Assembly: GCF_030269685.1 (NCBI RefSeq)
Contig: NZ_BSTT01000020.1
Span: 1-64,000, forward strand
Length of the DNA: 64,000 bases
Reading direction: 5' to 3'
Origin: Actinomycetospora sp. NBRC 106378
GTDB taxonomy: Bacteria > Actinomycetota > Actinomycetes > Mycobacteriales > Pseudonocardiaceae
The position numbers and the translations under genes were made by a program. This document shows positions 3,052 through 64,000 of the stretch, in pieces. The first letter of the stretch is position 1, and the number at the start of each line of letters is the position of its first letter. The notes under the pieces were generated by a model. It was not told the DNA's origin, searched no databases, and saw nothing but the letters and a program-made list of their open reading frames with translations.

Positions 3052-3674
3052 GCCTCGACCTGACGGCCCTGCTGGGCGCGGTCCACGGTCCGTGGGTCTA
3101 CGTCGTCGTCGTGCTGGCCGCCGCGCTGGAGTCGGCCGCCTTCGTCGGACTCCTCGTGCCGGGTGAGACGGTCATGATCCTGGCCGGGGCGGTCGCCGCC
3201 CTCGGCGGCGCGGACGTGGTCGGCGTCGCCATGGCGGCCGTGGCGGGGGCGATCGCCGGAGACCAGACGGGCTACCTGCTCGGCCGGACCATCGGTGACG
3301 CCCGGCGGGAACGTTGGGAACGGTCGCCGGGCTGGGCGCGCGCCGAGGCCCTCGTCGCGCGCCGCGGCGGCCCGGCGGTGTTCCTCGCCCGCTGGGTCGG
3401 GGTGCTGCGGGCCGTCGTGCCTGCGGTGGCCGGAGCGGTCGGCATGCCCCGACGCACGTTCAGCGTCTGGAACGTCGTCGGCGGCGCGTCCTGGGCGACG
3501 ACGGTCGTCCTGGTGGGCTTCCTCGCGGGCAGCGCGGGGCCGACGGTCGTCGGGTGGTTCGGGACCGTCGGCACGGTCCTGATGGTCGCCGTCGCGGTCG
3601 TGCTGGTCGTGGTGCGGATCGTCCGCCGGCGCCGTGCGCGCCCGGCCGGGCCGACCCCGGTGACGACGGCGTGA
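3048..3674 (+). CDS. DedA-family membrane protein
   Basis: DedA/SNARE-associated family protein of 208 residues with a GTG start overlapping the PAP2 stop by 4 bp. Family hallmarks are an ALESAAFVGLLVPGE segment, a GDQTGYLLGR motif, and the FLARWVGVLRAVVPAVAG region that holds the conserved arginine of the F.RF.P..R block. DedA proteins are flippase-like transporters, several of which recycle polyprenyl-phosphate or translocate phospholipids. That fits coupling to a PAP2 lipid phosphatase. The C-terminus is an Arg-rich cytoplasmic tail. Confidence 0.85.
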   Translation: MSLDLTALLGAVHGPWVYVVVVLAAALESAAFVGLLVPGETVMILAGAVAALGGADVVGVAMAAVAGAIAGDQTGYLLGRTIGDARRERWERSPGWARAEALVARRGGPAVFLARWVGVLRAVVPAVAGAVGMPRRTFSVWNVVGGASWATTVVLVGFLAGSAGPTVVGWFGTVGTVLMVAVAVVLVVVRIVRRRRARPAGPTPVTTA

Positions 3675-16842: not shown

Positions 16843-17826
16843 TCAGCGGAGGCTGGGTTCTCCCGAGAGTGGATCTTCTCGGGTTGCTTGGTGAGCGTAG
16901 TAGTTCTGTTCGTACTCGGTTGGCGGGATGTGGCCGAGTCCGGAGTGCAGGCGACTGGTGTTGAACCAGTGCGCCCAGGACGCGGTGACCAGTTCGAGGT
17001 CGGCGACGGTGCGCAGTGGGCCGTCTCGGGTGACGCATTCGGTCTTTTAGAGCCCGATCAGCGACTCGGCCATCGCGTTGTCGTAGGAGTCGCCGATCGA
17101 GCCGATGGAGGCCAGCGCTCCGGCCTCGAGCAGCCGCTCGCTTTAGCGGATCGCGGTGTACTGCGATCCAGCATCGGAGTGGTGGATCAGCCCGTCGAGC
17201 CGCCCGTCAGTGGCCTGACCTGCGCGTTCTCGGATCCAGAGCGCCATCTCTAGGGCGTCGAGGGGCAGCTCGGTAGGCATACGGGCGGCGCAGCGCCAGC
17301 CGACGATGCGCCGGGAGTAGACATCGGAGACGAACGCGGTGAACACCATCCCCGACCACGTCGGCAGGTAGGTCATGTCCACCACCCACAGCTGGTTCGG
17401 GCGCTGCGCGGTGAAGTCCCGATCGACCAGATCCGGGGCTCGCTGCGACTGTCGATCCGTGTGGGTGGTGATCACCGACTGGCCGCGGCGGACCCCGCGC
17501 AGTCCGAGGAGACGCATGAGCCGCTCCACCGTGCAGAGTGCCACCGAGTGCCCGGACAGGCCGGTGATGCCGTCGCGGCGCAGCTGAGCGCACATCTTGC
17601 GGGCTCCGTAGACCCCGCGGCCCTTGTCACGGTCGAAGAAGGTGGCCTCGATCGTCTCGGCCAGCGCCGCGTCCGACAGCGCTCGTCGCGAGGATGGGCG
17701 TTGCTTGTGGGCGTAGTAGCCCGACGGGGCGACCGCGATGCCCTCGCTGGTGAGGACACGGCAGATCGGCTCGACCCCGAAGCGGTGCTTGTGCTGATCG
17801 ATGTAGTCGACGATCAGCGGACATGG
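16843..17826 (-). pseudogene. IS3 orfB transposase with two in-frame stops
   Basis: The reading frame from about 17826 down to the TGA at 16843 encodes an IS3 OrfB: LIVDYIDQHKHRFGVEPIC, a helix-turn-helix region, and the DDE core (LWVVDMTYLP, HHSDAGSQYTAIR). It ends with the usual HSGLGHIPPTEYEQ tail. It is interrupted by TAA at 17143-17145 and again at 17047-17049. Both stops sit where relatives have Tyr (TAIRYSERL and GLYKTEC), so each looks like TAC to TAA. The catalytic Glu region lies beyond the first stop, so the transposase is dead. Confidence 0.85.
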
Positions 17827-18149
17827 CGGTCGAGCTCCGCCGCTGCGAAAAACGCCGACGCGGTCTTCAGGATCTCGTTCGCGCGGCGGAGCTCGGCGTT
17901 CTCCCGTCGCAGCCGCTTGAGCTCCTCAGACTCCGCTGTCGTGGTCCCCGGTGCGAGACCGTCGTCTACATCGGCCTGCTTGCACCAGTTCCGCAATGTG
18001 TCGGGCTGGATGCCCAGCTGCGGCCCGATCCACTTGCACGCCGCGTTGACCGACAGGCCCGGCTCCTGCTGCCGCGCTTCGCGAACCATCCGCTTCGCGC
18101 GTTCCCGCATCTCGTCGCTGAACTTCCTCGGCGCCGGCACGACCCCCAC
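17814..18149 (-). CDS. IS3 orfA (helix-turn-helix transposase subunit)
   Basis: A 111-residue OrfA. The N-terminal helix-turn-helix spans APRKFSDEMRERAKRMV to ACKWIGPQLGI, and a leucine-zipper-like helix follows (EELKRLRRENAELRRANEIL). It overlaps the orfB frame by a few bases, matching programmed -1 frameshifting in IS3 elements. This ORF looks intact, but with orfB broken it cannot support transposition alone. Confidence 0.85.
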   Translation of the reverse strand: MGVVPAPRKFSDEMRERAKRMVREARQQEPGLSVNAACKWIGPQLGIQPDTLRNWCKQADVDDGLAPGTTTAESEELKRLRRENAELRRANEILKTASAFFAAAELDRHVR

Positions 18150-52802: not shown

Positions 52803-53276
52803 GTGCAGATGCCCGATTCGCAGCAGCGCGTTCCCGAGGTTCCCGCCGCGGGCGTGGCGACCGAGGTCGACGGCCTGCCCGACGTGTCGAGTCTCGCGGA
52901 GGTGCCGAGCCCCGTCGAGGTGCGCGTGCACGCCGACCCGGCCCTGATCCCCTCGGTCCGCGCGGTGGCCGCGGACCTCGCGGCCCGGGCCGACTTCGAC
53001 CTCGACGCGGTGTCCGACCTGCGGATGGCGGTCGACGAGGCCTGCTCGGCGCTCGTGCCGCTCGCGAGCCCGGGCGGTCAGCTGCGGTGCGGGTTCACGG
53101 TGATCGACGGGCGGGTCGCGGTGGTCGCCCGCGTGCCGGTCGACCGGCCCACCTCGCTGCGTCAGGACACCTTCGGCTGGCGGGTGCTCGACACGCTCAC
53201 CGACGTCGCCGAGGTGCTGGACCGCGACCCGTCGTGGATCGGCATCCGACTGCTCAAGGACCGGACGACGACGTGA
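52803..53276 (+). CDS. RsbW-like anti-sigma factor (module 2)
   Basis: A 157-residue ATP-binding protein. It shares SVRAVAADLAARADFDLDAV, DLRMAVDEACSAL and TFGWRVLDTLTDV with the module 1 protein, so the two are paralogues. The GTG at 52803 has GGAG about 12 bases upstream; the in-frame ATG at 52809 is an alternative. It overlaps its sigma gene by 4 bp (GTGA). Confidence 0.83.
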   Translation: MQMPDSQQRVPEVPAAGVATEVDGLPDVSSLAEVPSPVEVRVHADPALIPSVRAVAADLAARADFDLDAVSDLRMAVDEACSALVPLASPGGQLRCGFTVIDGRVAVVARVPVDRPTSLRQDTFGWRVLDTLTDVAEVLDRDPSWIGIRLLKDRTTT

Positions 53277-54064
53277 GCGTCCCCGCCGAGCAGGAGAAGC
53301 GGGACGACTCCTATTCCCATCTCGCCCCCCTGCTCGCGGAGCACGCCGGCCTCCCGGTCGGTGACAAGCGCCGGGAGGCGCTCCGCGACCGGCTGGTCCA
53401 GGGCTACCTGCCGCTCGCGCGTCACATCGCGCGCCGGTTCGCCCAGCGCGGCGAGCCGCAGGAGGACCTCGAGCAGGTCGCCACGGTCGGCCTGATCCAC
53501 GCCGTCGACCGGTTCTCGCCGGAGCGCGGGTCGGACTTCCTGTCCTACGCGGTGCCCACGATCACCGGCGAGGTCCGTCGTTACTTCCGCGACAAGGCGT
53601 GGTCCACGCGTGTCCCGCGGCGGCTCAAGGACCTGCGCCTGGCCATCGGCTCCGCGATGCCCGCGCTCTCCCAGGAGCTCGGGCGCGCCCCGACGGCGGG
53701 CGAGCTGGCCGAGCGGCTCTCCAAGCCGCGCGAGGAGATCCTCGAGGCGCTCGAGGCGGCCAACGCATACCGCTCCAGCTCGCTCGACGACATGCTCGTC
53801 GACGACCCGTCGTCGGGACGCCTCGCCGACGTGCTCGGCACCGACGACGACGAGCTCACCCAGGTCGAGCACCGCGAGACCGTGCAGCCCGCGCTGCGCC
53901 GGCTGCCCGAGCGGGAGCGGACGATCGTCATGCTGCGGTTCTTCGGCGGCATGACCCAGACGCAGATCGCCGAGCGGGTCGGCGTCTCGCAGATGCACGT
54001 CTCGCGGCTGCTCACCCGCACCCTCGCGACGCTGCGCCAGGAGCTCTCCGAGGGCGGGAGCTAG
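53273..54064 (+). CDS. RNA polymerase sigma factor, SigB/SigF subfamily (module 2)
   Basis: A 263-residue paralogue of the 33123-33950 sigma factor. It shows LPLARHIARRFAQRGEPQED, ITGEVRRYFRDKAWSTRVPRR, TAGELAERLSKPREEI and MTQTQIAERVGVSQMHVSRLL. It differs in the N-terminus and the ALEAANAYRSSSLDDML region, though both share the DDML segment. The stop TAG shares its CTAG with the selB stop on the other strand. Confidence 0.92.
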   Translation: MSVPAEQEKRDDSYSHLAPLLAEHAGLPVGDKRREALRDRLVQGYLPLARHIARRFAQRGEPQEDLEQVATVGLIHAVDRFSPERGSDFLSYAVPTITGEVRRYFRDKAWSTRVPRRLKDLRLAIGSAMPALSQELGRAPTAGELAERLSKPREEILEALEAANAYRSSSLDDMLVDDPSSGRLADVLGTDDDELTQVEHRETVQPALRRLPERERTIVMLRFFGGMTQTQIAERVGVSQMHVSRLLTRTLATLRQELSEGGS

Positions 54065-55860
54065 CTCCGCACCGTGTGGCCCTCGCCCTCGTGGCGGGTC
54101 CGCCCGGTGCGGGCGAGCAGCTCGAGCAGGGGCACGGCCACCCGGCGGGTCGTGCCCAGCGCCTGCCGCGCGGTGGACACGGTGAACGGCTGCTCGAGGG
54201 TCGCGAGTACCTCGACCGCGCGGTCGGGGGCGTCCGGCCGCAGGTAGATGCCGTCGGCGACCCGCAGCAGCTCCCCGGCCTTCACGACCGCGCCGAGCTG
54301 CCTCGCCCCGAGCCCGAGCTCGCCGAGCCGGTGCGCCTCGGGAGCGAGGAACGGGGCCTCCGCCAGATCGGCGACCACCGTCGCGACGGCCTCCCGCACC
54401 GCCGTCGGCAGCCCACCGTCGCCCGGGCGCAGGATGCGGCCGCCCTCCTCGACGAGGTCCGGGCAGCGGGCGAGCACCAGCGCCACGAGGCGCTGGTCGG
54501 GCAGGTCGAGGCCCCGCTGCGCCGCTCGGGTCGGCAGACCCGGCTCCAGCGGGTCGGCCGCCGCGTGCGCCGCCACGAGCTCCGGCAGCCGGGCGGCCAG
54601 CGTCGCGAGGTGCTCCGGGTCGACGTACCAGCCCGCCGCGGCGGGGGTTCCCGACGGCGGGTCGGCGAGGCCCAGCCCCGCGAGGTCGGCGGCGCGGAGG
54701 ACCCGTCGTCGGGAGAGCTCGACGGCGGTGTCCGGGGTGCCGTCGCTCGTCGCAAGCTCGCCGGCCCGGGCGCGCGCGGCGCCGCGGCGGCGCAGCTCGG
54801 GCGGGCGGACGTCGAGCACGGTCACCCCGCCGAGCACCGCGTGGGCACCCGGGTCGCGCAGCAGGGCGCGGTCCCCGGGGCGCAGGGGGAGCGGCTCGCG
54901 CAGGGTGAGGCGCACGGTCCGCGAGGAGTCGGAGGCGTCCGGGGCGTCGTCGCGCGAGAGCGGCCGCACCCGGGCGGCCACGGCAGCGGAGCCCGCGTGC
55001 ACCATGACCTGCGACGGCAGCTTCCCGACGGCGTCCGTCCCCCGCGGCGGGTGCACGCGCACGTCGATCACGCCCGCCGCGAGCCACCGGCCCGGCGAGA
55101 GCAGCGCGTCGCCGCGCGAGACGTCCTCGAGCGGGACCCCGCGCAGGTTCACCGCCACCCGCGCGACCGCCGCCGCGGCGTCCACCGGCGCCCCGAGCGA
55201 CTGCAGCCCGCGCACCGCGACCGTCCGTCCCCCGAGCTCCAGCTCGTCGCCGACGGCGATGCTGCCCGCCCCGAGGGTGCCGGTCACGACGGTGCCCGCG
55301 CCCCGGATCGTGAAGGCGCGGTCGGCCCAGAGGCGGACGTCGGCGTCGGGCTCCGGGTCGGGGAGCCGCCCCGCGAGCGCGACGAGCTCGGCCCGCAGGT
55401 CGTCGAGGCCCTCGCCGGTGGCCCCGGAGACGCACACCGCGGGCAGCCGGCCGAGACTCGACTCCGCCAGGTGCTCCAGGGCCTCGTCGCGGGCCAGCTC
55501 GGGGTCCATGAGGTCCGACCGCGTCACCACGAGGACGCCGTCGGACACCCCGAGCGCGTGCAGCGCGTCGAGGTGCTCGCCCGACTGCGGCATCCAGCCG
55601 GCGTCCGCTGCGACCACGAACATCGTCGCGGGCACCGGCCCGACCCCGGCCAGCATCTGTGTCACGAACCGCTCGTGGCCCGGGACGTCGACGAACGCGA
55701 CCTGGCCCACGTCGGGCAGCGTCGTCCAGGCGAACCCGAGGTCGATCGTCATGCCCCGCCGACGTTCCTCGGCCCACCGGTCGGGCTCCATGCCGGTCAG
55801 CGCGCGGATGAGCGTCGACTTGCCGTGGTCCACGTGCCCGGCGGTCGCGAGCACCTTCAC
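54061..55860 (-). CDS. selB: selenocysteine-specific elongation factor SelB
   Basis: SelB of 599 residues, delivering Sec-tRNA to UGA codons at a SECIS hairpin. The GTPase domain has G1 ATAGHVDHGKST, the switch GMTIDLGFAW, G3 DVPGHERFVTQM, and VVTRSDLMD in place of NKxD-like G4. Domain II/III follow (GAGTVVTGTLGAGSIAVGD). Winged-helix domains from about residue 420 to 599 bind the SECIS RNA. The GTG start overlaps the selA stop by 4 bp. Confidence 0.93.
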   Translation of the reverse strand: MKVLATAGHVDHGKSTLIRALTGMEPDRWAEERRRGMTIDLGFAWTTLPDVGQVAFVDVPGHERFVTQMLAGVGPVPATMFVVAADAGWMPQSGEHLDALHALGVSDGVLVVTRSDLMDPELARDEALEHLAESSLGRLPAVCVSGATGEGLDDLRAELVALAGRLPDPEPDADVRLWADRAFTIRGAGTVVTGTLGAGSIAVGDELELGGRTVAVRGLQSLGAPVDAAAAVARVAVNLRGVPLEDVSRGDALLSPGRWLAAGVIDVRVHPPRGTDAVGKLPSQVMVHAGSAAVAARVRPLSRDDAPDASDSSRTVRLTLREPLPLRPGDRALLRDPGAHAVLGGVTVLDVRPPELRRRGAARARAGELATSDGTPDTAVELSRRRVLRAADLAGLGLADPPSGTPAAAGWYVDPEHLATLAARLPELVAAHAAADPLEPGLPTRAAQRGLDLPDQRLVALVLARCPDLVEEGGRILRPGDGGLPTAVREAVATVVADLAEAPFLAPEAHRLGELGLGARQLGAVVKAGELLRVADGIYLRPDAPDRAVEVLATLEQPFTVSTARQALGTTRRVAVPLLELLARTGRTRHEGEGHTVRS

Positions 55861-57230
55861 GACGACGACCCCTCCCCGCCGTGGCCCCCGGCCTCCTGGC
55901 AGGACAGCGTCGTTGCTGTCGTCGGGTGAGGGGAACGACGTCCTGCCACGGAGGGAGCCACCGCCTGCACCGCCGCGACGAGCCGCGCGTCGTCGTCCGG
56001 CAGCACCGAGCGCAGGTCGAGCAGGCACCGACCCTGCTCCACCCGCCCGACGACGGGGTCGTCCCCGGCCCGCAGCGCCTCGGCGTACGCCGCCGGGAGC
56101 GCGACCGCGGCGCTGGGCAGGTCCACGCCCGGCGCGCCGCCGCCGCCGACCTGCGCGGCGCAGTCGACGACCGCCCCGCCGACCGCCGCGGCCACTGCCG
56201 TCGCCCGGTCGCGCAGCGCGGACACGTCCGCCTCGAGCATCGCGCGCACCGGCGGGACGGGGCCGCGCAGCGTCGCCTCCAACGCCGCCAGCGTCAGCTT
56301 GTCCACCCGCAGCGCCCGGGCGAGCGGGTGCCGCCGCAGCCGGTGCACCAGCTCGGCGTCCCCGAGCAGCAGACCCGCCTGCGGCCCGCCGAGCAGCTTG
56401 TCCCCGCTCGCCGTCACGAGCGGGACGCCGGCGCGCAGCTCGGTCGCGGCGTCCGGCTCGCCGGGCAGCAGCGGGTGCGGCGCGAGCAGCCCCGACCCGA
56501 TGTCGGCCACCACCGGCACGCCGAGCCCGGTCAGCTCCCCGGCCGGCACGCTGGACGTGAACCCCTGCACCACGAAGTTCGACGGGTGCACCTTGAGGAT
56601 CATCCCGGTCTGCGGGCCGACCGCCGCCGCGTAGTCGTCGACCCGGACCCGGTTCGTCGTCCCGACCTCCCGCAGCCGTGCTCCCGTCGACTCCAGCAGC
56701 TCCGGCAGCCGGAACCCGTCGCCGATCTCGACCATCTCGCCCCGGGCGATCACGATCTCCCGGCCCGCAGCCAGCGCGGTCGCCGCGAGGATCAGCGCGG
56801 CCGCACCGTTGTTGGTCACGTGGACCCCGCCCGCGTCGGGCACGGCGTCCGCCAGCGCCGCCATCGCGCCCGCGCCCCGGCGGCCCCGGCCCCCGGTCGC
56901 CAGGTCGAGCTCGACGTCCGTCGTCCCGGCCGCCGTCACCAGCGCCTCCCGGGCGGCTCCCGAGAGCGGCGCCCGCCCCAGGTTGGTGTGCAGCACGACG
57001 CCGGTCGCGTTCAGCACCGGGCGCAGGCTCGCCGCGCTGCGCGGGAGGTCCGCGACGACGGCGTCGACCACGTCCTCCGGTGCGATCTCCCCGGCCCGCG
57101 CCTGCTGCTGCACGCCGAGCACGACGTCCTTCACCCGGGCCTTCCCGACGACCGCGACCGCGGTCGCCACGCGCGGGTCGGCGAGGACGGCGTCGGTGCG
57201 GGGGATCCGTCGCCGGGGGTCGGTGGTCAC
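55857..57230 (-). CDS. selA: selenocysteine synthase SelA
   Basis: PLP enzyme of 457 residues that converts Ser-tRNA(Sec) to Sec-tRNA(Sec) with selenophosphate. The active-site block is VTASGDKLLGGPQAG, with the PLP-binding Lys. Flanking family segments are VLNATGVVLHTNLGRAPLS, VEIGDGFRLPELL and VKVHPSNF-like ILKVHPSNFVVQGFT. The final 20 or so residues, including HPTTATTLSCQEAGG, come from the palindromic repeat at 55897-55949 and are not family sequence. GTG start 57230 overlaps the permease stop. Confidence 0.93.
   Translation of the reverse strand: MTTDPRRRIPRTDAVLADPRVATAVAVVGKARVKDVVLGVQQQARAGEIAPEDVVDAVVADLPRSAASLRPVLNATGVVLHTNLGRAPLSGAAREALVTAAGTTDVELDLATGGRGRRGAGAMAALADAVPDAGGVHVTNNGAAALILAATALAAGREIVIARGEMVEIGDGFRLPELLESTGARLREVGTTNRVRVDDYAAAVGPQTGMILKVHPSNFVVQGFTSSVPAGELTGLGVPVVADIGSGLLAPHPLLPGEPDAATELRAGVPLVTASGDKLLGGPQAGLLLGDAELVHRLRRHPLARALRVDKLTLAALEATLRGPVPPVRAMLEADVSALRDRATAVAAAVGGAVVDCAAQVGGGGAPGVDLPSAAVALPAAYAEALRAGDDPVVGRVEQGRCLLDLRSVLPDDDARLVAAVQAVAPSVAGRRSPHPTTATTLSCQEAGGHGGEGSSS
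55897..55949. repeat. CGTCGTTGCTGTC palindromic repeat inside the 3' end of selA
   Basis: A diverged 53-nt copy (TGGCAGGACAGCGTCGTTGC... and GGAACGACGTCCTGCCA) lies wholly inside selA's coding sequence, near the stop and just before selB's start. It shares the outer TGGCAGGA/TCCTGCCA arms with the 44.6-kb copy. Confidence 0.7.
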
Positions 57231-58270
57231 GCCGTCCAGGATCCACCCACCGCCACCACGACGGAGCACACCACCCCGATCAGCACCGTCCCGACCGTCA
57301 CCGTCGCGAGCACCCGCACCGGGAACACCCGGCGCACCATGAGCAGCGACGGCAGGCTGATCGCCGACAGCGTCACGAGCAGCGCGGCGGCGATCACCGG
57401 CGACACCCCGGCCGCGAGGAGCGCGGCGACCGCGGCGATCTCGGCGCCGGTCGGGATCGGCAGCAGCGTCCCGGCCACCGCGAGCAGCACGACGATCGCG
57501 ACGACCACCGCGCCGTGCGTCCCGGCGAGCCCCGCGCCGAGCGGGAACAGCACGCCCCGCAGCGCTCCGAGCACCACGACCAGCACCAGGTACTCCGGCA
57601 GCAGCCGCAGCGACAGCCCACCCAGCGCGACGAGGAACCGGACCGGCAGCGGGCGTCCGTCGTCGAGGGAGTCGGTCCCGACGGCGAGGCCGGTCGGGTC
57701 GGGGGCGTCGCCCGACCGCCGTGCGGCCAGCGCGCCCACCCCGACGACGGCGAGCCCGGCCGCCAGGCGCAGCACCGTCCACGGCCACGGCAGCACGAAC
57801 GCGCAGAACACCAGCACGACGGGGTTGAGGGCGGGGCTCGCCAGCCAGAACGCGAGCGCCGCGCGGACGTCGGCGGCGCGCTGGCGCAGCCCGACCGCCA
57901 CCGGCGCCGAGCAGCAGCTGCACATCATCCCCGGCACCGCGAGCGCGCTGCCGACGACCGCCCCGCGCCGCCCGACCATCCGGGCGGTCCAGTCCGCCGG
58001 CAACACCGTGCGGACGGCGGCGGCGAGCACGAGCCCGGTGACGAGGGCCGGCCAGATCGCGAGGAAGTAGGTGCCGGCGAACTCCAGGCCCGATCGCAGC
58101 GACACCCCGTCGGAGGGCAGGATCGACCTCCCGAGCGAGCCGGAGCCGGCCACCGACGGGACCTTCACCCAGTACGGCTGCCACTTCGCCCAGATCAGCA
58201 GCACCACCGCGAGCAGCGCCACGCCCGCAACCGGGATCCATGTGCGGCGGGGAGCCGTCGTCGTGGTCAC
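57227..58270 (-). CDS. permease of the YraQ/ArsP-type family
   Basis: A 347-residue integral membrane protein with eight to ten helices. A signature cysteine motif, GMMCSCCSAPVAVGLR, marks the YraQ/ArsP-like permease family. The partner region is ASPALNPVVLVFCAFVLP. The second half has IPTGAEIAAVAALLAAGVSP, repeating the loop. Its stop overlaps the selA start by 4 bp. This placement makes a role in selenium movement (for example selenite or selenide) plausible, but related permeases handle arsenite or organoarsenicals, so the substrate is open. Confidence 0.8.
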   Translation of the reverse strand: MTTTTAPRRTWIPVAGVALLAVVLLIWAKWQPYWVKVPSVAGSGSLGRSILPSDGVSLRSGLEFAGTYFLAIWPALVTGLVLAAAVRTVLPADWTARMVGRRGAVVGSALAVPGMMCSCCSAPVAVGLRQRAADVRAALAFWLASPALNPVVLVFCAFVLPWPWTVLRLAAGLAVVGVGALAARRSGDAPDPTGLAVGTDSLDDGRPLPVRFLVALGGLSLRLLPEYLVLVVVLGALRGVLFPLGAGLAGTHGAVVVAIVVLLAVAGTLLPIPTGAEIAAVAALLAAGVSPVIAAALLVTLSAISLPSLLMVRRVFPVRVLATVTVGTVLIGVVCSVVVAVGGSWTA

Positions 58271-58335
58271 GACGGTCGAGTCTGCGCGCCGTGCATGTCG
58301 TCCGCAGGACGGCTCCGTGTCCGCCCCGCAACACG

Positions 58336-58383
58336 ACGAACGGGCCGTCCGTCACGGTTCATCGTGACGAGCGGCCCGTTCGT
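58336..58383. terminator. hairpin after the NrfD-like gene
   Basis: Arms ACGAACGGGCCG-TCC-GTCACG and CGTGAC-GAG-CGGCCCGTTCGT form an 18-bp stem with a 3-nt bulge and a GTTCAT loop. It lies between the NrfD-like stop (58397) and the permease start, so it may attenuate read-through from fdh into selAB. Confidence 0.65.
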
Positions 58384-58396
58384 GGGTGGGGAAGGG

Positions 58397-59500
58397 TCAG
58401 CTGCCCGCCGCGGGGACGTAGTGCCGGTCGGGAGGCGTGGTCCCCGGCTGCACGGCCTCTTCCCGACGGCGGATGCGCTCGCGCTGGGGCACGACGATGT
58501 GCGCCGGGTCGTTGGCCGAGGCGATCCCGGCGTCGAACACCCCGAAGCGGGTGAGGGCGGAGCCCGCCATGAGCGCGAGCCCGGAGAGGGCTGCTGCCCA
58601 CCGCTTCCTCCGCCCGACGACGGCACCCACGGCACCGACCGCGAGGCACGCCTTCGACGCCGTCATCAGCGTCTTCGCCCGGCCCTTGTCGTAGACGTCG
58701 GCGAGCAGGCCGAGGTCGCGGGTCATCTTCTCCTCGGTGACCAGCTCCACCAGCGCGCCCGCGACGGCCAGCCGCGCGGCCGGCTCGTTGTCGCGGACCG
58801 AGGCCGCCACCAGCCCGAAGCCGCCGCCCGCCGCCGCCGCACTGCCCGCGAAGAGCACCGGCAGGTGGCGGTGGGCCTCGTGCCAAGTGGGGACGGCGGT
58901 GTTCGAGATCAGGACCGCGGTGTAGGTGGCGAGCGCGGGCCCGACGACGGCCGCACCGATCCCGGCCGCGTCCCCGGCGACGCGGAGGGCCGTGGCGCCG
59001 CGGCGTCCACGGAGGTACGGCGCGAGGAACTCGGCTCCCGCCGCCGCCGTCGCGAACGCCGCGAAGGGGGAGAGGATCCAGGAGCCGACCGACAGCGGCG
59101 AGGTCGGCTTGAACACCCGCAGCATGTGCAGGAACCGGCTCGGGCGGTGCAGGTCGTGGATGAGGAACACGGTGCCGCCCATGGCGCCGCCCATGGCCAC
59201 GTAGCGGCCGGCCGCCCGCAACGTCGGCCGGTCGGTGGCGTTCGCCATCGCCGCCAGCACCGACGACGAGCCCGCGAGCCCGCCGAGGAACAGGTACAGC
59301 GGGACGTCCGGGTTCTTCCACACCGGTGCCTTGATGATGGGGCGCCCGTAGTAGCTGCGGAACTCCGCCTCGGGCACCTGCAGCTGCTCGCCCCGGCCCC
59401 GACGGGTGCGCCCGCTGCGGGGCTTCACGGCGTCGTGGTCGATGCGCAGCCGCTCCGGCATCTCCGTCGGGTTGGAGTCCTCGGTCGGCCTGCCGGTCAT
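58397..59500 (-). CDS. NrfD-like membrane subunit of formate dehydrogenase
   Basis: A 367-residue polytopic membrane protein. About eight helices fit the NrfD/PsrC quinone-reducing subunit. It has RSYYGRPIIKAPVWKNPDVPLYLFLGGL at the N-terminus in two stretches, AGRYVAMGGAMGGTVFLIHD, then SPLSVGSWILSPFAAF and ATYTAVLISNTAVPTW, which are NrfD features. The C-terminal DRHYVPAAGS is polar. It would pass electrons from the Fe-S subunit to the quinone pool. ATG overlaps the Fe-S gene stop. Confidence 0.85.
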   Translation of the reverse strand: MTGRPTEDSNPTEMPERLRIDHDAVKPRSGRTRRGRGEQLQVPEAEFRSYYGRPIIKAPVWKNPDVPLYLFLGGLAGSSSVLAAMANATDRPTLRAAGRYVAMGGAMGGTVFLIHDLHRPSRFLHMLRVFKPTSPLSVGSWILSPFAAFATAAAGAEFLAPYLRGRRGATALRVAGDAAGIGAAVVGPALATYTAVLISNTAVPTWHEAHRHLPVLFAGSAAAAGGGFGLVAASVRDNEPAARLAVAGALVELVTEEKMTRDLGLLADVYDKGRAKTLMTASKACLAVGAVGAVVGRRKRWAAALSGLALMAGSALTRFGVFDAGIASANDPAHIVVPQRERIRRREEAVQPGTTPPDRHYVPAAGS

Positions 59501-60576
59501 CGCCGGCCCCCCGTCCAGAACGCCGCCACCGCGGCGGCACCCAGAGCGACGGCGGTCAGCGCCGCGTTCCGCCACATCTCGGGCAGGTCGCGGGTGGTGA
59601 CGATCGGGTCCGGCGGCAGGCCGTAGACCTCCGGCTCGTCGAGCAGGAGGAAGAACGCCCCGTCCCCACCGACGCCGTCGTTCTCGTCGCGGCCGTAGAG
59701 CCGGGCCTCGTTCACGCCGCGGTCGTGCAGCTCGGCGAGCCGGGCGTCCGCGGCGGCCTGCAGCTCGTCGAGGTCGCCGAACTGGATCGACTTCGTCGGG
59801 CACGCCTTCGCGCAGGCGGGCTCCAGTCCGCTGCCGAGGCGGTCGTAGCACAGCGTGCACTTGTGGGCGCCGCCGTCGGATCCGCGGACGTCGATGACGC
59901 CGTAGGGGCAGGACGGGACGCAGTAGCCGCAGCCGTTGCAGATGTCGTCCTGCACCACGACGGTGCCGAACTCGGTGCGGAACAGCGCGCCGGTCGGGCA
60001 GTTGTCCAGGCATCCGGCGTGCGTGCAGTGCTTGCAGACGTCGGAGGCCATGAGCCAGCGGACGTCCCGCTCGTCGTCGGGGGTCTGCTGACCGTGCGCC
60101 CCCGCGTCGGGGAGCAGGGACAGCAGGTCGACCGTGCCGCCCCCGGGCGCCGGCGTGGTCTCGCGGGTGGAGGGCAGCGCGCCGCCGCCGAGCGCGGGCA
60201 GGCCCGACGGGATGTGCCCCGTCGTGACGTCGTCGGTGGACGCGCCACCGTGCTTCGTCGTCGCCGACCCATGCGGACGGACGTCCTCGATGAACGCCAC
60301 GTGCCGCCACGTGGAGGCGCCGAGGTCACCGGTGTTGTCGTAGGACATCCCGGTGAGGCGGTAGAGGTCGGACGCGTCGGTCCCGTCGTCGGGGACGAGG
60401 TTCCACTCCTTGCACGCCACCTCGCAGGCCTTGCAGCCGATGCAGACCGACGTGTCGGTGAAGAACCCGACCCGCTTCGGGTGCGACGGATCGAACCCCG
60501 CGTCCGCGGCCGGGTCGGGGAGCTCGCCGTACAGCGAGTTCGCCGTCCCCGAGAACGCGTCGAAGACGTTGGTCAT
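59497..60576 (-). CDS. formate dehydrogenase iron-sulfur subunit
   Basis: A 359-residue Fe-S electron-transfer subunit. Four cysteine clusters are visible: DTSVCIGCKACEVACKEW, CKHCTHAGCLDNCPTGAL, CNGCGYCVPSCPYGVI, and CTLCYDR with ACAKACPTKSI. The middle insertion (about residues 95-165) is Gly/Thr/Pro-rich. A C-terminal hydrophobic anchor (AALTAVALGAAAVAAFW) attaches it to the membrane near the NrfD subunit. It follows fdhA after a 66-bp repeat-bearing spacer. Confidence 0.88.
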   Translation of the reverse strand: MTNVFDAFSGTANSLYGELPDPAADAGFDPSHPKRVGFFTDTSVCIGCKACEVACKEWNLVPDDGTDASDLYRLTGMSYDNTGDLGASTWRHVAFIEDVRPHGSATTKHGGASTDDVTTGHIPSGLPALGGGALPSTRETTPAPGGGTVDLLSLLPDAGAHGQQTPDDERDVRWLMASDVCKHCTHAGCLDNCPTGALFRTEFGTVVVQDDICNGCGYCVPSCPYGVIDVRGSDGGAHKCTLCYDRLGSGLEPACAKACPTKSIQFGDLDELQAAADARLAELHDRGVNEARLYGRDENDGVGGDGAFFLLLDEPEVYGLPPDPIVTTRDLPEMWRNAALTAVALGAAAVAAFWTGGRR

Positions 60577-60642
60577 GGTCGAGCTCCGCTGCGCTTCGTC
60601 TCCGTCGTCATGGCCGAGCTCCCCTTCGGTGCGTCTCCGTGG
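60577..60642. repeat. spacer made of GAGCTCCGCT/CGTCTCCG repeat units
   Basis: The 66 bases between fdhA and the Fe-S gene consist largely of two GAGCTCC...CGTCTCCG units on the plus strand, related to the 36-bp array at the end of the first hldE gene. No ribosome site is obvious. Confidence 0.55.
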
Positions 60643-63600
60643 TCACTCGATCCCTCCCGGCTCGACCCCCGCGCGACGGCGGTAGCCGGCGACGTACTCG
60701 AGGAGCTCGGGGCCGCGTGGTCGACGTCCCGGCTGGATGTCGCAGGTCGCGACCTTCGACTCCTGGATGTGGACGTTGGAATCCATCACGACGCCGAGCA
60801 GGTCGTTCGCCGGATCGCCGGTGATGATGCCCTGGGAGCCCCAGTGGTAGGGGAGCCCGATCTGGTGCACCTCACGGTCCCCGATCCGCAGCGGTTTCAT
60901 GCGCTCGGTCACCATCACCCGCGCCTCGATCGCCGTCCGCGCCGAGATCAGCGTCGCCCACCCCATGTGCTCGAGGCCCCGCTCCGCGGCGAGCGCGGGG
61001 GAGATCTCGCAGAAGAACTCCGGCTGGAGTTCCGAGAGGTAGGGCAGCGTGCGACTCATCCCGCCCGCGGTGTGGTGCTCGGTGAGCCGGTAGGTGAGGA
61101 AGACGTAGGGGAAGACCTCGCTCTGCGACGGGTTCAGCCGGTTCCAGGCGCGGTCCATCTCCTCGTGCGCGGGGTTGTCCTGCTGGTCGTGCAGCAGGTT
61201 GCGCACCGGGGACTCGACCGGCTCGTAGTGCGTCGGCAGCGGGCCGTCGGTCAGCCCCGTCGGCGCGTAGAGCCACGCCTTCCCGTCCGCCTGCATGATG
61301 AAGGCGTCGGTGCCGGCGAGGGCGTCGGGACCGGTGGCGCCGGGGTCCGGCTTGTAGTCCGGCGGCTTGGTGACCTCGAAGTCGGGCACGTCGTGCCCGA
61401 CCCAGCGGCCCTGCGCCTCGTCCCACCACACGAGCGCCTTGCGGTCGCTCCACGGCCGGCCCTCGGCGTCGGCCGAGGCCCGGTTGTAGAGCACCCGGCG
61501 GTTCGCCGGCCAGGCCCAGCCCCACTCGGCGGCGATCCAGTCCTGCTCCTCGCCGGGCTTGCGGCGGTCGGCCTGGTTGACGCCGTCCTTGTAGATGCCG
61601 GTGTAGATCCAGCAGCCCGCCGTGGTCGAGCCGTCGGCGGTCAGCTCGGTGTACGACGACAGCGGCATCCCGTCGGCGTCGGCCCCGTTGATCTCCGCGA
61701 GCACCGTCTCGACGTCGGGCTCGTCGTGCATCCCGGAGGTCGGGTAGCCCCACGTCAGGTTGAGCAGCGGCTGGTCCCGCTCCTCCGTGGACCCGGCGAG
61801 CTTCTCCCGGATGCGCTTTCCGAGGTGGTAGTAGAAGTGCAGCTCGGAACGGGCGTCGCCCGGCGGATGCACCGCCTCGCGTCGCCACTGGACCAGACGC
61901 TGGGTCTGGGTGAAGCTGCCCGCCTTCTCGGTGTGGTTGGCGCAGGGCAGGAAGAAGACCTCGGTCCCGATGTCCTCGGTGCGCAGCTCGCCGGTCTCGA
62001 TCTCCGGAGCGTCGTACCAGAACGTGGCCGACTCGATCATCTGCATGTCGCGGACGACGAGCCATTCCAGGTTCGCGAGGCCGAGGCGCTGCATCTTGCC
62101 GTTGGCGTGCCCGACCGCCGGGTTCTCGCCGACGAGGAAGTACCCGAAGGACTTCTTGTCGATCTGGTCCCGGACGATCGAGTAGCTGCCGTGGTCGCCG
62201 GTGATCCGTGGCATCCAGTCGAACGCGAAGTCGTTCTCCGCGGTCGCCGCGTCGCCCCACCACGCCTTGAGCAGGGACACCGTGTAGGCGTCCATGTTGC
62301 CCCAGAAGCCGGTCTTGGCGGCGTCCGCGTCGAGGTAGTCGCGCAGCGTCTCGTGGTGCGCGCTCGGCATGGGCAGGTAGCCGGGCAGCAGGTCGAACAG
62401 CGTGGGGATGTCCGTCGAGCCCTGGATCGAGGCGTGCCCGCGCAGGGCCAGGATGCCGCCGCCGGGACGGCCCATGTTCCCGAGCAGGGTCTGCAGGATC
62501 GCCGCCGCGCGGATGTACTGCACGCCCACGGTGTGGTGGGTCCAGCCGACCGAGTAGACCCACGCGGTCGTCCGGTCCCGGCCGGAGTTCTCGGTGATCG
62601 CCTTCGCGACCTCGAGGAACGACCCCACCGACATGCCGCACACCTGCGACACCGCCTCCGGGGTGTAGCGGCTGTAGTGCCGCTTGAGCACCTGGTAGAC
62701 GCACTGCGGGTGGGTCAGGGTCTGGTCGCGCCGCGGCTCGTGGTGCCCGATCGGCGCGTCCTGCCCGTTCGGGTGCTCGGGCATCTGGGACTCCCACGCG
62801 TCCCGCTTGCCGGCCGCCGGCGCCCGGTAGGCGTCCTCGAGACCCCAGCTGACCGGCGAGTACTCACCGGTGTCCGGGTCGTACCCGGAGAAGATGCCGC
62901 CGGCCTCCGGGTCGGAGGCGTCCACGAAGGAGTCGTCGACGATGTCGGCGGCGTTCGTGAACGTCTGCACGTACTCGCGGAAGTCGAGCTCGTTCTCCAG
63001 GACGTAGTTGATCAGCCCGCCCAGGAACGCGATGTCCGCGCCGCCCCGGAACGGCACGTGGTGGTCGGCCACCGCGGTGGTGCGGGTGAAGCGCGGGTCG
63101 ACGTGGATGACCTTCGCGCCGCGGCGCTTGGCCTCCATCACCCACTGGAAGCCCACGGGGTGGGCCTCCGCCATGTTGGACCCCTCGATGACGATGCAGT
63201 CCGAGTACACGAGGTCCTGGAGGAAGTTGCTGGCGCCTCCACGCCCGAAGCTGGTCCCCAGACCGGGGACGGTGGCGCTGTGTCAAATACGCGCCTGGTT
63301 CTCCACCTGGATCGCGCCGAGCGCCATGAACAGCTTCTTGATGAGGTAGTTCTCCTCGTTGTCCAGCGTCGCGCCGCCGAGGCTCGAGAAGCCCCGGGTG
63401 CGCCGCAGGACACGCCCCTGGGCGTCGGTGTCCTCCCACCCACGACGGCGGGCGTCGATCACCCGGTCGGCGATCATGTCGACCGCCGTGTCGAGGTCGA
63501 GGTCCTCCCACTCGGTGCCGTAGGGCCGCCGGTACCGCACGGTCGTCACGCGGGAGGGGCTGGTCACCAGCGACGTCGACGCCGAACCCTTCGGGCACAG

Positions 63601-63852
63601 GCGCCCGCGGGAGACGGGGGAGTCGGGGTCGCCCTCGATCTGGGTGACCCGGCCGTCGCGCACGTAGACGTTCTGGCCGCAGCCCACGGCGCAGTACGGG
63701 CAGATCGACTTGACGACCTCGTCGGCCGTGTCGGTCCGCGGCGTGAGCGCCTTCGTCCGCGGCGACTGCACGGCGGTGCCGCGGGCGAGCGGGTCAGGAC
63801 CGGTCGCCTGGCGGAACATCGGCCATTCGCCGAGCCAGGTACGGACGCCCAT
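60643..63852 (-). CDS. fdhA: selenocysteine-containing formate dehydrogenase catalytic subunit
   Basis: A single gene of 1069 residues with in-frame TGA at 63283-63285 read as selenocysteine at residue 190. Before it lie the Fe-S motif CPYCAVGCGQ...RLCPKG and ATLDNEENYLIKKLF; QARI-U-HSATVPGLGTSFG surrounds the Sec as in FdhF and FdnG. Afterwards come SDCIVIEGSNMAEAHPVGF, FNMGRPGGGI-like GNMGRPGGGILALRG and the molybdopterin domain ending in the VHIQESKVATCDIQPGRRP region. The ATG has GGAGG eight bases upstream. No Tat signal is seen in the first 30 residues, unlike FdnG. Expressing it as two ORFs would be wrong. Confidence 0.94.
63240..63285 (-). promoter_or_regulatory. UGA plus SECIS-like hairpin in fdhA
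   Basis: Reading the minus strand, the UGA at 63285-63283 is followed 12 nt later by the hairpin GTCCCC-GGTCT-GGGGAC (63254-63270). The GGUCU apical loop is the same as in the E. coli fdhF/fdnG SECIS element that SelB binds. Position and loop together strongly support Sec recoding. Confidence 0.88.
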
Positions 63853-63914
63853 GGGGTGGACCTCCCCGTGCTGTGGTGGACCCGGGTTCCGACGCTGGGA
63901 CCTGGGGGAACGTG

Positions 63915-64000
63915 TGGCGGAGGCGGACGGGAATCGAACCCGCCTGGCCGAGATACCCGGCCACGTCGGTGTTGAAGACCGCGGGGCCCACCAGGAACCC
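63915..64000 (-). tRNA. selC: tRNA-Sec (anticodon TCA), 5' end cut by window
   Basis: The minus strand shows the anticodon TCA (63973-63975) in a GGTCTTCAACACC loop, a long variable arm with a 6-bp stem (TGGCCG...CGGCCA), and T-arm GGCGGGTTCGATTCCCGTC. The acceptor 3' strand CGCCTCCG is followed by encoded CCA (63915-63917). The 5' acceptor strand and part of the D arm are past position 64000. It lies about 60 bases upstream of fdhA on the same strand. Confidence 0.93.

Follow-up and report, generated by a model that had tools for sequence, protein, structure and literature searches.

The window, the whole stretch of 64,000 nucleotides from Actinomycetospora sp. NBRC 106378 that was analysed, contains between positions 54061 and 64000 a linked selenocysteine locus. 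All genes named in the original prediction were located there on the minus strand by tRNA, open reading frame and profile evidence. In the direction of transcription, these are selC, fdhA, fdhB, fdhC, a permease, selA and selB, with the following features:

63915..64000, minus strand: selC, tRNA-Sec with anticodon UCA (TCA) (Rfam RF01852, ARAGORN)
60643..63852, minus strand: fdhA, formate dehydrogenase alpha subunit of about 1070 codons with predicted selenocysteine at residue 190 (NF041513)
63283..63285, minus strand: in-frame UGA, putative selenocysteine codon at residue 190 of fdhA, in the context ENQARI-U-HSATV
63241..63285, minus strand: bacterial SECIS consisting of the UGA and the hairpin GUCCCC-GGUCU-GGGGAC (stem 63270-63265 / 63259-63254)
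59497..60576, minus strand: fdhB, iron-sulfur subunit (Fer4_11; TIGR01582 177.6 bits, below the cut-off of 334.7)
58397..59500, minus strand: fdhC, NrfD-type membrane subunit (PF03916 44.5 bits, cut-off 25.8)
58336..58383, minus strand: strong hairpin with 21-nt arms of 90% complementarity (z=-3.45)
57227..58270, minus strand: permease of the ArsP_1 family, 347 amino acids (PF03773 67.6 bits)
55857..57230, minus strand: selA, selenocysteine synthase (TIGR00474 403.9 bits, cut-off 267.9)
54061..55860, minus strand: selB, selenocysteine-specific elongation factor, 599 amino acids (TIGR00475 267.1 bits, cut-off 242.25; PF09107 winged helix)

Organization of the cluster

The 5' end of selC extends by 10 bases beyond the edge of the window, and the complete gene (63915-64010 of contig C20) scores 70.3 bits against RF01852, compared to 54.9 bits for its truncated form. 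When scored with TGA read as U, fdhA matches NF041513 with 1888.7 bits (cut-off 1400) over residues 6-1060, a region that spans the UGA. The 4-bp overlaps that had been predicted for most joints are found at three of the six (fdhB/fdhC, permease/selA and selA/selB) but not at the others, where gaps of about 62-66 nt separate selC from fdhA, 66 nt fdhA from fdhB and 126 nt fdhC from the permease. The region between fdhA and fdhB (60577-60645) harbours a sequence of about 36 nt (GGAGACG...GGAGCTCG.CCATGA) in two similar copies, the second of which constitutes a mini-ORF of 12 codons ending at the start of fdhB. At the distal end of the cluster, the palindromic CTAG at 54061-54064 provides the stops of both selB and a convergent gene coding for a sigma factor of the SigB/SigF type (53087-54064, plus strand). 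Elsewhere in the window, at 17725-17856, an Rfam ALIL pseudoknot (68.4 bits) was detected, a frameshift element typical of insertion sequences of the IS3 type.

The gap between fdhC and the permease holds a 21-nt inverted repeat, whose hairpin is terminator-like without containing a U-tract. Strong hairpins are located at the same position in five relatives, some of them differing in sequence, and in another Actinomycetospora genome (G098, L031:8100-8210), where the permease is cleanly absent and selA occupies its place, the hairpin directly precedes selA. Since permease and selA of the window both begin with GTGACCAC, the shared start suggests a deletion between the two starts as origin of the latter arrangement. 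The location of the hairpin and its retention in relatives indicate that the cluster is probably divided into two transcription units, one comprising fdhABC, potentially together with selC, and the other permease-selA-selB. A scan for sigma-70 promoters and U-tract terminators returned no match, and the hairpin could serve as a processing site instead of a terminator.

The in-frame UGA codon of fdhA

If read conventionally, fdhA stops at residue 189 at its single in-frame UGA, which is what would be expected for a gene broken by a genuine stop or by a sequencing error. The features of the following hairpin were compared in an alignment of the 45 bases starting from the UGA across genomes of the family. 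In all 28 distinct UGA sequences the six-pair helix is intact (168/168 cells paired), with C-G, U-A, U-G and G-U found at pair 18-30 as compensatory change, whereas it is broken in seven homologues carrying cysteine (26 of 42 cells kept). Similarly, the loop nucleotide U24 is invariant in UGA genes and lost in the cysteine homologues. The covariation score, to which a single pair changing on both sides contributes, was matched in none of 500 shuffles and was destroyed by sliding. Folding of the single sequence (MFE z=-0.22) was uninformative, leaving the decision to the comparative test. The covariance model R1 recovers the SECIS of the window within the genome at E=2.7e-10. Its loop GGUCU is placed 18 nt after the UGA codon, a spacing that is identical in fdhF of E. 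coli.

The distribution of the decoding machinery conforms to the same assignment. In a survey of 150 genomes of the family, selA was found above cut-off in 103 and a UGA-containing formate dehydrogenase in 82, all of which carry selA, while five of seven genomes with a cysteine-containing enzyme do not. The genome studied here contains the complete decoding set of SelA, SelB, tRNA-Sec and SelD, each of which, like FdhA, exceeds its curated profile threshold, with a bacterial SECIS directly 3' of the UGA. In light of the conservation of this element among the aligned UGA genes and the co-occurrence with selA, together with the presence of the cognate selA, selB, selC and selD, we have rejected a broken fdhA, for which we see next to no chance. 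The conservation, covariation and co-occurrence instead allow us to assign the UGA, from sequence, as selenocysteine codon with high confidence.

As noted in the original prediction, selD is absent from the window. The concern that it could be lacking altogether was dispelled by a gene on contig C3 (C3:486403-487314, 384.5 bits), which is unlinked to the locus. In contrast, the proposal that fdhA might be the only client of the machinery did not hold, as two further alpha subunits with in-frame UGA are encoded on contigs C17 and C21. The former (C17:106404-109610) belongs to the same family, with 67% identity over residues 10-1063, and its SECIS was detected by model R1 at E=6e-11, whereas the latter is of the cytoplasmic FDH3 type with the UGA in the context DSCNRT-U-HAPSV, where a stop is found at the same place in the genomes G069 and G035. 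The three proteins match FDH1, FDH2 and FDH3 of A. chiangmaiensis. In the genome, FDH1 and FDH2 were found and FDH3 was missed by R1, a model that is specific for formate dehydrogenases and whose reach does not extend to further selenoproteins. A nitrate-reductase-like protein at C1:839546, which scored on the formate dehydrogenase profile, is judging by its sequence probably an assimilatory nitrate reductase.

Relation to known systems and proposed pathway

The described cluster is not new. In a 2020 publication, the FDH1 cluster of A. chiangmaiensis DSM 45062 is described with the order FdhA-B-C-permease-SelA-SelB, an unlinked SelD and the additional enzymes FDH2 and FDH3, and the same work reports the detection of FdhA1, FdhB1, FdhC1, SelA, SelB and SelD by proteomics and a selenite-dependent removal of formate (PMC7176365). 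For the genus, these data provide part of the answer sought from mass spectrometry in the original prediction. The locus of the window is a further instance of this known and common type of cluster, sharing its gene order and unlinked selD, with FDH2 and FDH3 present in both genomes. It differs in species and in its permease, which is of full length (347 amino acids), whereas the permease of A. chiangmaiensis (G075, L032:12778-13659) carries an in-frame deletion of about 54 codons. The closest named relatives containing the permease are five genomes of Actinomycetospora.

Compared to FdnGHI and FdhF of E. coli, the active-site UGA and the spacing to the SECIS loop are shared, whereas the protein of the window belongs to the actinobacterial NF041513 family, its machinery is linked to the client and the membrane subunit is of the NrfD type in place of a cytochrome b. 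With respect to the features of an FDH-N heterotrimer, the adjacent beta subunit scores below the cut-off of TIGR01582 and the adjacent gamma subunit is NrfD and not FdnI. Since FdhB falls below this threshold and FdhC matches the general NrfD family, the electron acceptor of FDH1 is uncertain.

Collectively, we have little doubt that the locus represents the selenocysteine cluster FDH1 in a species of Actinomycetospora and that it would operate by the following mechanism. SelA, using selenophosphate provided by the unlinked SelD, would convert Ser-tRNA-Sec, the product of selC, into Sec-tRNA-Sec, which SelB would deliver to the ribosome to decode the UGA at codon 190 of fdhA via the hairpin located directly behind. 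FdhA would thereby acquire a selenocysteine as ligand of its molybdenum cofactor and, together with FdhB and FdhC, is predicted to form a membrane-anchored formate dehydrogenase of the respiratory type. The same machinery would serve the two other UGA-containing enzymes of the genome. For Actinomycetospora sp. NBRC 106378 itself, we infer both enzyme activity and actual insertion of selenocysteine. Beyond the window, 5-14 kb from selC, is a ribulose-monophosphate set encoding hxlA, hxlB, rpe, fructose-bisphosphate aldolase, glpX and transketolase (L012:5605-14358, corresponding to C20 69605-78358), and given its proximity the enzyme may serve formaldehyde or C1 metabolism.

The permease and its possible relation to selenium

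The new part of our analysis concerns the linkage of the permease, which may be a missing selenium transporter. The protein exceeds the gathering score of PF03773 (ArsP_1; 67.6 versus 32.3 bits) and contains the C(S/T)C motif within the sequence MMCSCCSAP (C117, C119, C120). The 32 homologues that were aligned are all assigned to ArsP_1 by Pfam, and the C-x-C-C motif (C117, C119, C120), K29, P32, Y33, N149, P150 and E277 are invariant among them. Characterised ArsP proteins transport organoarsenicals and carry the C(S/T)C motif (PMC4435449). Family profile and motif are thus shared with the permease of the window, which differs by its gene context of selenium instead of arsenic, the extra adjacent cysteine (CSCC) and a KWxPY motif. 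The criterion of an arsenic operon context does not apply to it, its neighbours being selA and fdhC. An assignment as SaoE (NF040736, 40.7 bits, cut-off 325) or as Cu/Zn efflux protein SO_0444 (NF033936, 33.2 bits, cut-off 300) was rejected, both being efflux transporters and distant members of the same superfamily, latter with known selenocysteine-containing forms (PMC13188914). Equally rejected by its profile (TIGR04112) was an identity as YedE, a predicted selenium transporter (PMC5322559). YedE resembles the permease as membrane protein that is linked to selD and other selenium genes and nearly confined to selenium users, although it belongs to a different protein family, and a search of the genome with its profile gave no match. 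A comparison with solved structures and a fold search yielded neither a sequence relative nor a fold match at E <= 0.001, which says nothing on the substrate. A plasmid search with the permease returned weak or partial homologues, with no selenium context noted.

In Actinomycetospora, the permease overlaps selA in the arrangement permease-selA-selB. In genus g312, which belongs to another family, selD is divergent from permease-selC-selA-selB in five of five genomes. The genome G578 shows the arrangement permease-selB, and G069 and G035 show UGA-FDH3-permease. In the Chloroflexi MAG Baikal-deep-G117 (L050:6429-14683), a homologue, although split into two frames, is found within a selenoneine/ergothioneine cluster with senB, senA, a LysR-type regulator, egtB, selD and egtD (scores versus cut-offs: SenA 484.6/420, SenB 371.2/300, SelD 354.3/125). 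Homologues thus adjoin selenium genes in four lineages besides Actinomycetospora, from two phyla. A maximum-likelihood tree joins the permeases of Actinomycetospora and g312 (100/99) and implies that, in the rows tested, selenium linkage changed at least three times, which may reflect one gain and two losses. At the level of the order, 22 of 22 genomes with the permease contain SelD, compared to a background of 258 in all 369 genomes (p=2.9e-4, or p=0.024 when counted by genus), and within the family 15 of 15 contain selA (p=0.0025), with both sets overlapping and the p-values ignoring relatedness. Across the phylum, co-occurrence with SelD is not significant (7/10 versus 244/396, p=0.42). The three exceptions are from family f19, and two of them stem from genomes that are less than 85% complete.

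These observations favour a transporter of selenium, acting as efflux valve or in the uptake of reduced or organic selenium species, that is co-expressed with selA-selB, and the absence of the known candidate YedE from the genome points in the same direction. They are opposed by the insignificant phylum-wide test, the disrupted Chloroflexi copy, the partial homologue YraQ of E. coli, which has no known link to selenium, the dispensability of the permease in the Actinomycetospora genome lacking it and the fact that selenium genes are missing next to most homologues, among them those of several genera such as the Mycobacterium-like g47. Due to the loss in one species and these homologues without selenium neighbours, we regard a role in selenium handling as about evenly balanced. 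The absence in one species and the shortened form in A. chiangmaiensis also indicate that the permease is not essential for selenocysteine decoding. Both alleles would suit a functionally unconnected passenger of the selAB operon, which we consider improbable in light of the linkage to selenium genes in the four other lineages. Somewhat doubtful, though deserving consideration, is an export of arsenic, of a different metalloid or of a metal that reacts with thiols, in analogy to the characterised ArsP proteins, with the selenium neighbours reflecting shared redox stress. The family assignment with its motif, the weak matches to the Cu/Zn and SaoE efflux models and a DtxR-type metal repressor adjoining one distant homologue are consistent with such export, whereas the confinement to genomes with SelD within the order argues against it, as does the lack of recognisable arsenic-resistance genes near those copies that were read, an inspection done by eye with profiles applied to part of the neighbours.

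Returning to selenium, there is in our view an equal chance for and against the permease at 57227-58270 being a member of an unrecognised selenium permease family, a dedicated transporter of selenium users without YedE. As mechanism we prefer the export of reduced or organic selenium species, with uptake as the alternative, since the characterised ArsP proteins, which share the C(S/T)C motif, move organoarsenicals (PMC4435449). We infer that its task would be the removal of reduced selenium in excess or, alternatively, selenium uptake. According to a 2026 review, prokaryotes have no known transport system that is both specific for selenium and of high affinity (PMC13188914). The linkage to selenocysteine decoding, selenocysteine-containing formate dehydrogenases and selenoneine genes in separate lineages makes the permease a concrete and testable candidate, for which Actinomycetospora supplies natural intact, deleted and absent alleles.

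A separate observation concerns homologues in the Actinomycetota MAG G503 (77% complete, selD not found), where an in-frame UGA replaces the first cysteine of the CxCC motif (SVPFSM-U-TGCAAP; L115:2228-2230 and L116:3713-3715). With 99% identity over 1145 bases, these copies possibly represent a single gene. On L115, a downstream thioredoxin-like gene carries WASW-U-GC, with its UGA at 3325, and the reading frames would possibly encode a selenocysteine-containing permease beside a TlpA selenoprotein of the UGC type.
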